This document shows positions 9,375 to 14,524 of a DNA stretch of 64,000 nucleotides, piece after piece. The notes beneath the pieces were generated by a model. That model was not told where the DNA came from. It did not search any database and was given only the letters and a program-made list of their open reading frames with translations. The translations under genes were made by a program, and so were the position numbers. The stretch spans positions 2,790,001 to 2,854,000 of the forward strand of contig NZ_JABWRY020000001.1 in assembly GCF_014269205.2 (NCBI RefSeq), read 5' to 3'. Every line of letters begins with the position of its first letter. Within the stretch, counting starts at the first letter, position 1. The stretch is from Pseudomonas kermanshahensis. Its GTDB lineage: Bacteria; Pseudomonadota; Gammaproteobacteria; Pseudomonadales; Pseudomonadaceae.

Positions 9375-9860
9375 TCAGATGTGGTAGATGTCGATGACCT
9401 GACGCACGTAGTCGTTCTTCAGGACCACCTTCTTGGCCTTGATCAACGGCTGCTCGCCGCGCAAATCGAGGGTGTAGAAGCTGCTGCCGAAGTAGCTGTC
9501 GGTGGTCTTGTAGCGAAAGCTCAGTGTGTGCCAGTTGAAGCGCACCTGGCAGTAACCCTCGCCCTGCTCAACGATCTCGATGTTGCTGATGTTGTGCGAG
9601 GTACGGGTGTCCGGCACGGTCGCGCTGGAGCGCTCGGTCTTGATGCGGAACACCCGGTCCTCGAGGCCACCACGGTTGCCGTACCAGATCAGCGAGATTT
9701 CGCTTTGTGGGTCTTCGGTGAGGCGGTCGTCATCGTCCCAGGACGGCATCCAGAAGCTGGCATCGGCTGCGTACAGCTCCAGCCACTGGTCCCATTCGGC
9801 GTCGTCCAGGTAGCGCGCTTCGCGGTAGAGGAAGTCGCGCACGGTTTCGTAGAGGCTCAT
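9375..9860 (-). CDS. benB: benzoate 1,2-dioxygenase small (beta) subunit
   Basis: A 161-residue ring-hydroxylating dioxygenase beta subunit, a small cone-shaped fold that packs with BenA into an alpha3beta3 hexamer. The N-terminal segment [28 protein letters not shown] (shown here only to identify its position, residues 10-37) carries the usual tryptophans, and the C-terminal [10 protein letters not shown] is a typical family end. The start codon overlaps the benA stop (ATGA), so the subunits are translationally coupled, as expected for stoichiometric assembly. Length is normal for the family. Confidence 0.94.
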
Positions 9861-11215
9861 TGTACGGCCTCCACGGGGATCAGTTGCTGTTCATCCTTGA
9901 GCGCCTGGATCATGGTGTCCTGCCAGTACTTGTGTTGCAGCACGAACAGGCCTTCGTCCTCGGTGCGCACGCCTGACAACAGCGGCTTGAGCTCGATTTC
10001 CTGGGCCGCCTCGTCAGCGCCCTCGACCCAGTGGGCAGCGCCGCGGGACATGTCGTTCCAGCCGGTGCCGCCGCCGTAGCCGGTCTGGCACGAGCGGAAC
10101 TCTTCAAGGTCGTCCGGGGTGGCCATGCCGCTGACGTTGAAGAAGTCCTCGTACTGGCGGATGCGCTTGGCACGGGCGTCAGCGCTCTCGCCTTTGGGCG
10201 CGATGCAGTAGATGGTGATTTCGGTCTTGTTCACCGAAATCGGCCGGGCAATACGGATCTGCGAACTGAACTGGTCCATCAGGTACACGTTGGGGTACAG
10301 GCAGAGGTTGCGCGAGTTCTCGATCATCCAGTCGGCGCGCGCCTGGCCGTAATCGGCGGCCAGCTGGTCACGTCGCTCGTAGGCCGGGCGGTCTTCTGGG
10401 TTGGCCCAACGGGTCCACAGCAGCAGGTGGCCATGGTCGAAGGAATAGAAGCCCCCGCCCTGCTTGGCCCAAGCGCCTGCGCTCATGGTCTTGATCTCGT
10501 CACCCGCCTCGCGCTGTTTGCGCTGGTTCTGGGTGGCGGCGTAGTTCCAGTGCACGGAGCTGACGTGGTAGCCGTCGGCGCCGTTCTCGGCGGTGAGCTT
10601 CCAGTTGCCTTCGTAGATATACGAACTGGCGCCACGCAGCACTTCCAGGCCTTCGGGCGACTGGTCGACGATCATGTCGATGATCTTGGCCGACTCGCCC
10701 AGGTGCTCTACCAGCGGTTTCACATCGGCATTCAAGCTGCCGAACAGAAAGCCCCGGTACGACTCGAAGCGCGCGACCTTGGTCAGGTCGTGGGAGCCGT
10801 CGCAGTTGAAACTGTCGGGGTAGCCGGCGTTGCTCGGGTCTTTGACCTTGAGCAGTTTGCCGCTGTTGTTGAAGGTCCAGCCATGGAATGGGCAGGTGTA
10901 GCTGGCACGGTTACCGCGCTTGTGCCGGCACAGCATGGCGCCGCGGTGGCTGCAGGCATTGAGGAAGGCATTGAGTACCCCATCCTTGTTGCGCGCGATA
11001 AAGATCGGCTGGCGCCCCATGGTCAGGGTGAGGAAGTCGTTTTTGTCGGGGATCTGGCTTTCGTGCGCCAGGTAGATCCAGTTGCCCTCGAAGATGTGCT
11101 TCATCTCCAGGTCGAACAGGCGTGGGTCGGTGAACATCTCGCGCTTGCAGCGGTAGATGCCCTGTTCACGGTCGTCTTCGAGCATGGCATTGAGGTAGTC
11201 GAATCCCAGGGACAT
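9857..11215 (-). CDS. benA: benzoate 1,2-dioxygenase large (alpha) subunit
   Basis: A 452-residue Rieske non-haem iron oxygenase that adds O2 to benzoate to form the cis-diol. Rieske ligands are Cys88, His90 (CSHRG) and Cys108, His111 (CPFHGW). The mononuclear iron site has His217 and His222 in [12 protein letters not shown], with Asp214 bridging to the Rieske cluster. The ATG at 11215 is preferred because GGAG lies nine bases upstream; an ATG five codons earlier has no Shine-Dalgarno and would consume this one. A BenR-type operator and a CA-rich Crc motif precede it, but an Rhs-core gene now occupies most of the benR-benA interval. Confidence 0.96.
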
Positions 11216-11229
11216 GGCCAGGGTCTCCA

Positions 11230-11240
11230 TTGTTATTGTT
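11230..11240 (-). promoter_or_regulatory. Hfq/Crc CA-rich motif in the benA leader
   Basis: On the minus strand AACAATAACAA lies immediately before the benA Shine-Dalgarno, a strong match to the AANAANAA motif of Hfq/Crc repression. Benzoate genes are known Crc targets in P. putida. Confidence 0.55.
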
Positions 11241-11278: not shown

Positions 11279-11314
11279 TATCCGGATTGTGCAGAGTGTT
11301 ATCCAGCTTTGTCG
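11279..11314 (-). promoter_or_regulatory. BenR/XylS-type operator of benA, distal half degenerate
   Basis: The proximal 15-mer (11279-11293), read on the minus strand as TGCACAATCCGGATA, matches TGCA-N6-GGNTA, the half-site of XylS and BenR, perfectly. Exactly 21 bases upstream (11300-11314) lies CGACAAAGCTGGATA, which keeps GGATA but has lost TGCA. XylS-type promoters use two such repeats 21 bases apart. The distal copy overlaps the last codons and stop of the neighbouring Rhs-core gene. Confidence 0.68.
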
Positions 11315-12228
11315 GGATCTCGCACTTTTGGAACCAGCCGTTTGGGGTCATGGAGCCAACTGGTAATACGAGGGATGTCCTCGGCTGCTTTCATTTTAAC
11401 GTGAAGCGGAGTAAGAAACTTAAGCGCCTCCCATATTCTACGCTGTTGCTCCGCCAGGGGATTGTGAAAGTTGCTCGCTGTAGTCGTTACTTGGGCGTTC
11501 GTGCTGAGTGTTTCTCCGTAATTCTTGGACAGTGTTAAAACACTCCCCTCCACCACTAAATAGTCTCCTTTAGACCATATCGGAGCTTCAACAATTCTCT
11601 GCAATTGGCTCCCATTATTGCGGCCCAGCTCGTTAACTGTAGCTACAACATCCTCGCTCACAACATGAGAGCGCGCCCGTGAATAATCTGGATTGATAGT
11701 ATCCCCACTTTTAGTGTTTCCTGTATCAGGCCTAATGCCAGTTTTATTTTGCTTCCGAACGCCCTTATGACCACTGGGATCAGTATTGTTAACAGGGTCC
11801 CCACCACAGTATATGTAAGAATTGAGCCCTCCTACACCGAATGGGCTCAGACTGTCGGGGCTATTGAACCTCATCAGAACAGGGTTAAACCCACGGTATC
11901 CCTGCCCTAATAAGTAGTGCCCTGTGACGGATACTTTCCGCTGACTGTTGAATCGCAGCAAAGGGGCATCCACGATGTCAGCGTCATGGCCGTAAGGCGT
12001 GTACTGAATCGAATAAGACGTTTTATCACCCGTGAGCCCTATGATCGAACCCTGCAGGTCACTTGAGCACATCGCAACTTGTTCATCTTTTTTCTGGGCG
12101 AGCACCTGCTCTGCGGCGCGCAACATAGTCGATGCCTGCGTACCAGGATATTTGACCATCGCCAGACCCTCCGGCGAGTAAAAATACAATTGCTGCGACG
12201 TAGACATAAGTGCCACCATTTTATCCAT
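11299..12228 (-). CDS. small Rhs-core domain protein inserted between benR and benA
   Basis: A protein of up to 309 residues. The middle (about 95-155) is a single RHS-repeat-associated core with the hallmark GYRGFNPVLMRFNSPD, then PFGVGGLNSYIYCGGDPVNNTDPSG. After the NTDPSGH boundary comes a variable C-terminal tail of about 150 residues that I do not recognise. Full Rhs proteins are huge cage-like toxins; this one keeps only the last core strands plus the tail, like the short orphan Rhs genes of the P. putida group. It is richer in A+T than its neighbours, a sign of transfer. No Shine-Dalgarno is clear for the first ATG; the ATG at 12207, after GGTGG, is an alternative. The gene lies in the benR-benA regulatory interval, co-directional with ben. 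No immunity gene follows it. Confidence 0.78.
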   Translation of the reverse strand: MDKMVALMSTSQQLYFYSPEGLAMVKYPGTQASTMLRAAEQVLAQKKDEQVAMCSSDLQGSIIGLTGDKTSYSIQYTPYGHDADIVDAPLLRFNSQRKVSVTGHYLLGQGYRGFNPVLMRFNSPDSLSPFGVGGLNSYIYCGGDPVNNTDPSGHKGVRKQNKTGIRPDTGNTKSGDTINPDYSRARSHVVSEDVVATVNELGRNNGSQLQRIVEAPIWSKGDYLVVEGSVLTLSKNYGETLSTNAQVTTTASNFHNPLAEQQRRIWEALKFLTPLHVKMKAAEDIPRITSWLHDPKRLVPKVRDPDKAG

Positions 12229-12300: not shown

Positions 12301-13257
12301 TTAACCGCGTCGCTTGAAGGTCTGCGATGGCAGCTCACCAAATTGCTGCCGGTACACCTCGGAAAACCGCCCCAAATGCAGGAAGCCGTAATCCAGAGCA
12401 AGCTCCGTCACACTCCGCACCCCACACGTGGGGTCACTCAAACACGCCTGCACCCGCTCTAGCTTGCGTTGCCGCACATAATGCTTAGGCGTGGTAGCTA
12501 GGTGCCGATCAAACAGCGCATACAGCGACCGCACGCTCATGCAGGCCTGCTCCGCCAGCACCTCAGCCGACAGCTCCAGCTTCAGGTTGCGCTCGATGTA
12601 ATCCAGAATCCGCTCCAGGCTAGCCGCCGGTGCACTCAGGCTTTCGCGCCGAATGTTGGTGCTCATCAAGGTCAGCAGTTTGCTGGCCACAATCTGGCTG
12701 TAATGCCCCTGCACCCGCGGCAACGACTCATTCACCTCGGCTTCATGGCACACCATCGCCAGCAGGTTTACGAAGCCGTCCAACTCTTCCAGCCGGTAGT
12801 GGTTACGCAGGAACCGCACGCCGCCATCCGGGCGATGCCAGCGTTGTTCTTCGCAGATCGAATCGAGCAGCCGGGTCGGCACCTTGAGGATAAATTTCTC
12901 GCAGTCTTCCGAGTAGGTCAGGTCAACCGGGTCGTCCGGGTTGATCAGCAACAACTCGCCCGGCACCAAGTGATGCTCACGCTGGGGCCCGCGCCACAGG
13001 CAGTTGCCGTTGAGCAACACTTGCAAGTGGTAGATGGTTTCCAACGCGGGCGAGGTGACGCGCACGCTGCCGCCGTAGCTGATGCGGCACAGGTCGAGTT
13101 CGGCGAATTTGCGGTGGCTGAGGCTGGCCTGGGGGTGGGTGGTGCGCGACAAACCGATGCAGTGCTGGCCCACGTGCTGGTTCACATAATCGGACACAGC
13201 ATAAGGATCGGCGTGGTGAAACACGCTACTGCGCTCGCTCAGCAGGCGGCTTTCCAT
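12301..13257 (-). CDS. benR: BenR, AraC/XylS-family activator of benzoate genes
   Basis: A 318-residue AraC/XylS regulator. The N-terminal effector domain (about 1-200) starts ESRLLSERSSVFHHADPYAV, close to BenR of P. putida as I remember it. The C-terminal double helix-turn-helix (about 215-318) includes LAEQACMSVRSLYALFDRH and ELALDYGFLHLGRFSEVYRQ. BenR binds benzoate and activates the benA promoter at TGCA-N6-GGNTA repeats, one of which is seen before benA. The ATG at 13257 is used rather than the in-frame TTG two codons earlier. A CA-rich Crc motif lies 15 bases upstream, consistent with known translational control of benR by Crc. Confidence 0.93.
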   Translation of the reverse strand: MESRLLSERSSVFHHADPYAVSDYVNQHVGQHCIGLSRTTHPQASLSHRKFAELDLCRISYGGSVRVTSPALETIYHLQVLLNGNCLWRGPQREHHLVPGELLLINPDDPVDLTYSEDCEKFILKVPTRLLDSICEEQRWHRPDGGVRFLRNHYRLEELDGFVNLLAMVCHEAEVNESLPRVQGHYSQIVASKLLTLMSTNIRRESLSAPAASLERILDYIERNLKLELSAEVLAEQACMSVRSLYALFDRHLATTPKHYVRQRKLERVQACLSDPTCGVRSVTELALDYGFLHLGRFSEVYRQQFGELPSQTFKRRG

Positions 13258-13272
13258 AGGCAAGGCACTCGG

Positions 13273-13285: not shown

Positions 13286-13693
13286 CTAGTCGCCGCTTCC
13301 TACAGCCTTGTGGGCTGTGGTTGCGGTCGTCACGGTCATTCTATCGGCCCGGTTACGGGTCGCGGGGGCAGGCGACAACCGGTGGTTAGGTACACTACAG
13401 CAAAAAGGCGGGGGTTGGGCAATGTGGCGATGGGATTGCATGGGCGGATAGCGGACAGGTCGGATGCAGCTAGTGTTCGCTTATCGAACAGTATTTTCCT
13501 GTGCTGGCCTCTGTACAGGGCTGCGAAGGTCTCGAGGGCCGAGGAAGACGCTGTGTGGGTTAACCCGCGAAAAGGCCGGCACAGGCAAAGGTAAATGCAG
13601 CTACCTGGTATTTCTGCTAGTTGTTAGCACGCTTACAACAAGTGACAATTCGGAGCTATCTATCTACGAGCGCGAGTGTTGCTGGGTATTCTG
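13286..13693. other. intergenic region between benR and the second Rhs-core gene
   Basis: About 400 bases without a convincing gene; short open frames have no recognisable protein. The part near benR must hold the benR promoter. The only clear structure is the palindrome at 13474-13490. Base composition becomes richer in A+T toward the Rhs-core gene on the right, suggesting that the edge of an imported segment lies here. Confidence 0.5.
13474..13490. promoter_or_regulatory. operator-like palindrome, similar to IclR-family (PcaR-type) sites
   Basis: TGTTCGCTTATCGAACA is a perfect six-base inverted repeat around five bases. Its complement contains GTTCGATAAGCGAAC, close to the P. putida PcaR operator as I recall it (GTTCGATAATCGCAC). 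It lies about 215 bases upstream of benR and a similar distance before the Rhs-core gene. No target gene is obvious. Confidence 0.4.
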
Positions 13694-14524
13694 ATGATTA
13701 ATACAAAAACCGGTTTCACCTTGTTGGCTACCAACAGCCAAAACTCGATAATAATCGCCTACGCACAAGGGAAAACTGGCCTTGTAAATTATTTGCCCTT
13801 TGGGTTCGCCCTCGCGCCTTCTCAGATGCCCATCCGACTTAAATTTACAGGCGAGCAACAAGATCCAATAACAGGCTTATATTTATTGGGAAATGGCTAC
13901 CGCTCGTTCAGCCCAGCCTTGGGCAGATTCGTTTCTCCCGATAAAGTAAGCCCATTCGGGAATGGTGGTTTGAACAGCTATGCCTATTGTAACGGCGACC
14001 CGGTCAACTTGGTTGACCCAGAGGGACGGGCGGGCGAGCCAAACGCGCTAGTTCCAAATGAGCTACTCGTGCTTCGCAGCCGGGCAATTCAACGAACCCG
14101 TCACGACCCAAACAGAGCGGCCAACAGGAGGCACGCCGTTCCCGCGGCGTCAGCTGATCGAAATCCTGCGCCTCTACAGGCTCCAGTGGCTCCAGTGGCG
14201 CCCGAAGCGAGTGCAGCGCAACGCGCGATCAATATAGGTGGAGCCCCGGCTGCCGCACCTAATCCACAAGATGTGCTGGACAACTACGTCATCTCTTCAA
14301 TAACGCTATTGCAAGCGAACAGACAGGGCTTTGGCAATCCTCAATCACCTAACCATGCCAACTACCGGACCTTGAGAAACCATGTTCAAAGTCTTGCCGC
14401 AGAGAATACCCAGATGCTAGCTCAAGAGTTGCCAGAATATATGTCAGATCTGACCCATACGCTCCTGAGACATGCCGACGGAGCCTTGACCATCAACAAT
14501 ATGCAAATCAGGGCAGAAGAGTGA
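13694..14524 (+). CDS. small Rhs-core domain protein with variable C-terminus
   Basis: About 276 residues from the ATG at 13694; a GTG at 13676 is an alternative start. Residues about 45-110 form one RHS-associated core: GYRSFSPALGRFVSPD, then PFGNGGLNSYAYCNGDPVNLVDPEG. The tail after DPEGRAG is about 165 residues, begins with a low-complexity Pro/Ala/Arg-rich linker (RHDPNRAANRRHAV, PAPLQAPVAPVAPEA), and ends in a helical-looking domain that I do not recognise. Its core is clearly related to the Rhs-core gene on the other side of benR, but the tails share nothing visible, as expected for exchangeable Rhs C-termini. Only 39 bases separate it from the convergent AraC gene, so there is no room for a downstream immunity gene. 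Confidence 0.75.
   Translation: MINTKTGFTLLATNSQNSIIIAYAQGKTGLVNYLPFGFALAPSQMPIRLKFTGEQQDPITGLYLLGNGYRSFSPALGRFVSPDKVSPFGNGGLNSYAYCNGDPVNLVDPEGRAGEPNALVPNELLVLRSRAIQRTRHDPNRAANRRHAVPAASADRNPAPLQAPVAPVAPEASAAQRAINIGGAPAAAPNPQDVLDNYVISSITLLQANRQGFGNPQSPNHANYRTLRNHVQSLAAENTQMLAQELPEYMSDLTHTLLRHADGALTINNMQIRAEE

Follow-up and report, generated by a model that had tools for sequence, protein, structure and literature searches.

The benR–benA promoter of Pseudomonas putida serves as a model for gene regulation and is often built into biosensors. In the 64,000-nucleotide stretch of P. kermanshahensis DNA analysed here (the window), an rhs gene lies between benR and benA, where this fast-evolving gene has bases in common with a core catabolic promoter. 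If several species of the group run a damaged operator, what is learned from them may not apply to other Pseudomonas, and the locus offers a natural experiment on the minimal requirements of an AraC/XylS-type operator. In the open-licence literature, no report of an rhs gene at benR–benA or of the junction letters was found. In KT2440, PP_3160 is presumably the gene between benR and benA.

Read along the minus strand, the window has benR, then rhs, then benA (Table 1), followed by two genes taken by their position to be benB and benC. The rhs gene has a G+C content of 0.494, compared with 0.645 for the window, and the gap from rhs to benA measures 68 nt to the first benA ATG (11230) or 83 nt to the second (11215). 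The sole terminator match (12300–12284) falls in the benR–rhs gap and is at chance level (one found against a mean of 1.0 in shuffles).

Table 1. Features of the benR–rhs–benA locus in the window
Feature	Positions	Strand	Basis
benR, AraC/XylS-type activator	12301..13263	-	Pfam PF14525, PF12833, PF02311
16-nt palindrome CTGTTATTTCTGCCAG, upstream of rhs, common to other rhs genes of the genome	12266..12281	-	genome pattern scan
Orphan rhs gene (309 aa), Rhs core followed by a variable C-terminal tip	11299..12228	-	ORF, TIGR03696
Rhs core, aa 76–154	11767..12003	-	TIGR03696
Variable helical tip, about aa 174–309	11302..11709	-	protein alignment, structure model
Degenerate distal BenR repeat CGACAAAGCTGGATA; box B (GGATA) alone left, forming the end of rhs	11300..11314	-	operator scan, regional comparison
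Intact proximal BenR repeat TGCACAATCCGGATA	11279..11293	-	operator scan
benA, benzoate dioxygenase large subunit; 68 or 83 nt after rhs	9857..11230	-	ORF, Pfam

The operators of XylS at Pm (TOL plasmid pWW0) and of BenR in Pseudomonas consist of two TGCA-N6-GGNTA repeats 21 bp apart before a dioxygenase gene, and both repeats are present in pWW0 Pm (TGCAAGAAGCGGATA-CAGGAG-TGCAAAAAATGGCTA). In contrast, the window strain keeps the proximal repeat (8/8 bases, 11293..11279) and lacks an intact distal repeat 21 bp upstream: box B of the distal 15-mer is complete, whereas box A retains 1/4 bases and is replaced by rhs codons. The distal GGATA (11304..11300) stands exactly 21 nt upstream of the proximal repeat, and the rhs 3' end reads ...GCT GGA TAA, the GGATA and the next A forming the last Gly codon and the TAA stop. 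The 26-nt pattern GGATA-N6-TGCA-N6-GGATA had one exact match in the 64-kb window and two matches with up to two mismatches, against a shuffle mean of 0.17. These data agree with the sequence-only reading, which had described an Rhs-core gene between benR and benA, a perfect proximal repeat, a distal repeat 21 bases away reduced to GGATA, an rhs stop codon inside that half-site and an 83-base gap free of terminators. The open reading frame (12228..11299, minus strand) matched TIGR03696 above the cut-off, and the scan found no terminator in the rhs–benA gap, whose 83 nt holds with the second ATG.

Concerning the distribution of this arrangement, loci were collected from a search of relatives by genome (a benA-like match in 46 of 57), from 80 benR relatives in named species, from 17 of 398 Pseudomonas genomes that matched the junction, and from the benA loci of 22 species without benA at the benR locus; up to 4 kb downstream was fetched, less at contig ends. 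From 169 loci, 41 without a benA match, 10 paralogues and 14 duplicates were removed, leaving 104 distinct benA upstream regions. A region was counted as rhs-free when tblastn with the window Rhs found no same-strand match (E <= 1e-6) in the 1100 nt before benA, a criterion that a very different rhs could escape. The 22 loci, among L039–L102, had no benA beside benR in the fetched stretch, some of them ending at contig ends; the benA loci of those species (L148–L169) kept the distal repeat with 7 or 8 of 8 bases.

A window-Rhs match was present in 11 of the 104 regions. Distal box A was lost in all ten regions with rhs between benR and benA, scoring 0/4 in two, 1/4 in six and 2/4 in two, which is about chance level, and box B was complete in every one of them. 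By comparison, box A had at least three of four bases in 88 of the 93 rhs-free regions. The association of rhs with box A loss was strong by Fisher's test (p = 1.2e-9), although this value is overstated and 10/10 is not a count of independent events, given the kinship among the rhs-bearing strains. In the P. putida group (43 regions, benA at least 93% identical), one of 32 rhs-free regions, L138, lacked box A. Other candidates for a loss without rhs were rejected: L014, L108 and L109 carry both repeats intact at a distance of 22 instead of 21 bases, and L020 has a distant benA (61%) and no recognisable operator. In a genus-wide scan, 97 of 318 Pseudomonas genomes had a perfect double repeat, the window's genome not being among them; the reversed pattern occurred in none of the 318.

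The junction TGGATA[AG]CACTCTGCACAATCCGGATAG was identical in all ten rhs-bearing genomes, and the bases replacing box A were rhs codons in eight of them, the rhs frames of the other two ending earlier. The sequence-only reading had proposed an insertion that replaced or eroded the distal half; the loss does go with rhs, but the insertion is not private to the window strain, since ten genomes have its junction. Likewise, the alignment with rhs-free relatives that it had called for showed that relatives without rhs or an rhs remnant keep distal box A. An rhs-free strain with a degenerate site, named there as counter-evidence, exists to the letter in L138 alone, but L138 contains such a remnant. 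Its interval measures 184 nt from the benR stop to the first benA ATG and has no window-Rhs match, and AGATCCCGGCAGAACTGGATA before the operator is identical at 19 of 21 bases to the rhs 3' ends of L031 and L033. We read L138 as a deletion of rhs that left the damaged operator behind; it is rejected as an rhs-free loss and counts for overwriting because its tail is an rhs remnant. The comparison of these regions gives good support to the reading that rhs overwrote the distal BenR repeat. An rhs gene need not destroy this site, since L137 (the same sequence as L163, P. peradeniyensis) has two tandem rhs genes directly before benA and an intact distal repeat, with the stop codon of the second rhs lying inside the repeat (ACT GCA TAA AAC GGA TA).

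The trees place this junction in different genetic backgrounds. In the benR tree, whose sampling did not include the window strain and L131, eight rhs-bearing strains and L138 formed a clade (99/97), and the sister of this clade was L038, which is rhs-free with an intact distal repeat (100/99). In the benA tree, rhs-bearing and rhs-free strains were mixed, and the window strain paired with P. capeferrum WCS358 (L040; rhs-free, intact site) at 100/96. A 23-row benR tree also grouped the window strain with WCS358 (86/93), outside the rhs clade. The identity of the window benR to that of WCS358 was 87–97% up to about nt 780 and then, over the three 60-nt pieces at the end of the gene, 77, 82 and 56%, compared with 77–92% to the rhs-bearing strains and the scar L138 in the same pieces; the breakpoint rests mostly on the last 60 nt, the sole piece with a clear contrast (rhs-bearing strains 81–91%, WCS358 56%, rhs-free L038 77%), and the WCS358 benR end may itself have diverged. 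The BenR C-terminus PSQTFKR was found in all ten rhs-bearing strains and the scar. The 28 distinct rhs-free benR genes with identities from 85% upwards all lack it, L102 coming near with PSQTFKQ; two more distant rhs-free benR genes (L004, L006) do have it. Further, in its proximal repeat (CAATCC inside) and the following G the window agrees with the rhs type and differs from WCS358. As benA and most of benR are nearest to a rhs-free relative while the operator is of the rhs type, the window strain probably received the rhs block through recombination, and the simplest account is one origin with later exchange of the block, which is likely, by homologous recombination.

This history bears on two other explanations of the damaged operator. 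Box A might have been dispensable already and decayed by drift, with rhs arriving later and incidentally, and the survival of L138 and ten rhs-bearing genomes with a half-operator would fit such a course. We consider it improbable, since rhs-free regions retain box A at the frequency given above, including L038, whose benR is the sister of the rhs clade, and since rhs codons stand in the very place of box A in most rhs-bearing genomes. Several independent insertions of rhs into the operator would account for the scatter of rhs-bearing strains on the benA tree and for L137/L163, where rhs abuts the same operator with another junction, but the other ten agree in their junction, in the palindrome that follows benR and in their benR 3' allele, and repeated insertion appears a little more improbable still.

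On the reading that we prefer, a short orphan rhs gene settled between benR and benA in a lineage of the P. putida group, and its 3' end replaced the distal repeat up to box B, the operator supplying the last Gly codon and the stop; the sequence comparison shows this step. The benR 3' end, palindrome, rhs and half-operator would then form a block exchanged between species by homologous recombination, within which rhs alleles and tips change, as the trees, identity shifts and dS values suggest; such an exchange is the probable source of the block in the window strain, a relative of P. capeferrum WCS358. BenR anchored on the intact proximal repeat would most likely still activate benA, its upstream subunit touching box B only, with an activation that would be weaker or need more BenR. 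The rhs gene would probably be controlled through its own palindrome, with some read-through into benA possible. We assign this account as a whole, from the settlement of rhs and replacement of box A through block exchange to half-operator activation and separate rhs control, a probability of roughly 0.7.

The functional part of this account can be compared with known systems. A first XylS monomer is said to take the proximal site and to help a second onto the distal site (PMC5481539); with box A lost, weaker or more BenR-dependent activation would be expected here. The KT2440 Pb promoter is benzoate-inducible, with a basal activity above and a maximum below those of Pc (PMC3321037), and a plasmid-borne BenR/Pben pair had a high basal output that rose by 81% with 5 mM benzoate, a pattern that its authors attribute to extra BenR (PMC8711041). 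A cell-free P. putida BenR/PBen pair showed little leak and was sensitive down to 1 uM (PMC6461607), which may be evidence against a weak promoter. One could speculate that the rhs block is a travelling promoter-editing module whose half-operator answers BenR and responds poorly to XylS-like relatives. The difference that the P. putida mt-2 Pben promoter reportedly shows in its response to BenR and XylS would then be a by-product of an rhs gene, a proposal that we hold to be improbable as it stands.

The lost repeat would be immaterial if BenR used another upstream half-site. Matches of 6–7 of 8 bases within 300 nt upstream, the distal position excluded, do occur in five of the ten (L033, L036, L037, L062, L131), but the window strain, L031, L032, L034 and L035 have none at 6/8 or better apart from the operator, and most positions are not common between strains, -178 recurring in L033 and L037; we regard this use as very improbable. 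Linked control, in which read-through from rhs would also contribute to benA expression or benzoate signals would act on rhs, draws on the common strand of the two genes and their distance of 68–83 nt with no terminator listed between them. The palindrome CTGNYATTTYTGNCAG that precedes rhs points the other way. In the window's genome it occurs 14 times exactly and 38 times when up to one mismatch is allowed, against one for the reversed pattern; a comparison of positions placed it within 300 nt upstream of 9 of the 20 Rhs-core matches of the genome, and in the rhs-bearing loci it can be made out a short way past benR. Because this palindrome is common to other rhs genes, it suggests a separate control of rhs, and linked control seems unlikely.

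We know of no regulator of the palindrome, and five spelled-out variants were not found in the open-licence literature. Some copies of CTGNYATTTYTGNCAG in G000 precede genes that are not rhs-like (for example L186, L187, L188 and L197), with long frames having lipoprotein-like starts after the palindrome in L186 and L188; the palindrome may mark a wider regulon. In L054, the sequence directly after benR contains CTGACATTTTTG, part of the same palindrome, and no window-Rhs match was found there.

Concerning the Rhs protein, tip exchange at a fixed core is a known phenomenon, the same core bearing different C-terminal tips between strains. In the present locus, by contrast, a catabolic operator forms the right-hand border, and the tip has no immunity gene moving along with it. 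The NCBIfam model TIGR03696 scored 64.3 bits over the core (cut-off 32.5), and Pfam gave no match in the protein at E <= 0.001. Among the eight rhs alleles ending at the operator, dS was 0.56–2.97 in 23 of 28 pairs and saturated in five, far above the benA values (0.11–0.47), and dN was less than half of dS in each computable pair, the ratios being rough near saturation. With dS high and dN below it, the rhs alleles look old or imported and still constrained. The tips differ between alleles while the junction stays unchanged: two tip groups (the window, L031, L033, L037 and L131; L032, L034 and L062) end in the operator-made Gly-stop. In L035 and L036, rhs stops earlier and TGGATA is kept, as it is in the scar L138; its retention in these three lineages, few as they are, hints that box B is used as an operator. 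Of the 34 proteins in alignment A1, few of which have a known genomic place, 31 have Gly as their last residue.

The protein has the Rhs core and the variable C-terminal tip behind it that characterise Rhs polymorphic toxins. As in the KT2440 T6SS effectors Tke2 and Tke4 (PMC5363822), the core is ended by a PxxxxDPxG motif; unlike them, the window Rhs has only 309 aa, with no PAAR match in Pfam, no long Rhs shell, no recognised toxin domain, and no immunity gene directly downstream, benA following after 68–83 nt. The tip was modelled as helical (mean pLDDT 53 overall, 65–93 in ten-residue blocks from aa 171 to 290). Its fold had no match in the PDB at E <= 0.001 (best E 0.2), and no family was assigned to it in Pfam or PADLOC; it may be an undescribed domain. 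Viral contigs yielded one partial core match only.

Tip A occurred in 4 of 398 genomes and the tip-B query matched in 2 of 398, in each case at benA. A special confinement of the tips to the benA locus was rejected after a control with the tip of another orphan rhs gene of the window, which was likewise found in 4 of 398 (the window genome, G286 and two weak matches, L216 and L217, with no AraC or benR match in the fetched stretch); confinement of tips to one locus may be general, the numbers being small. This second rhs gene (13676–14524, plus strand; 282 aa, TIGR03696) flanks benR on its other side and has a variant of the palindrome at about 13605, and its 76%-identical copy in G286 adjoins the same AraC gene.
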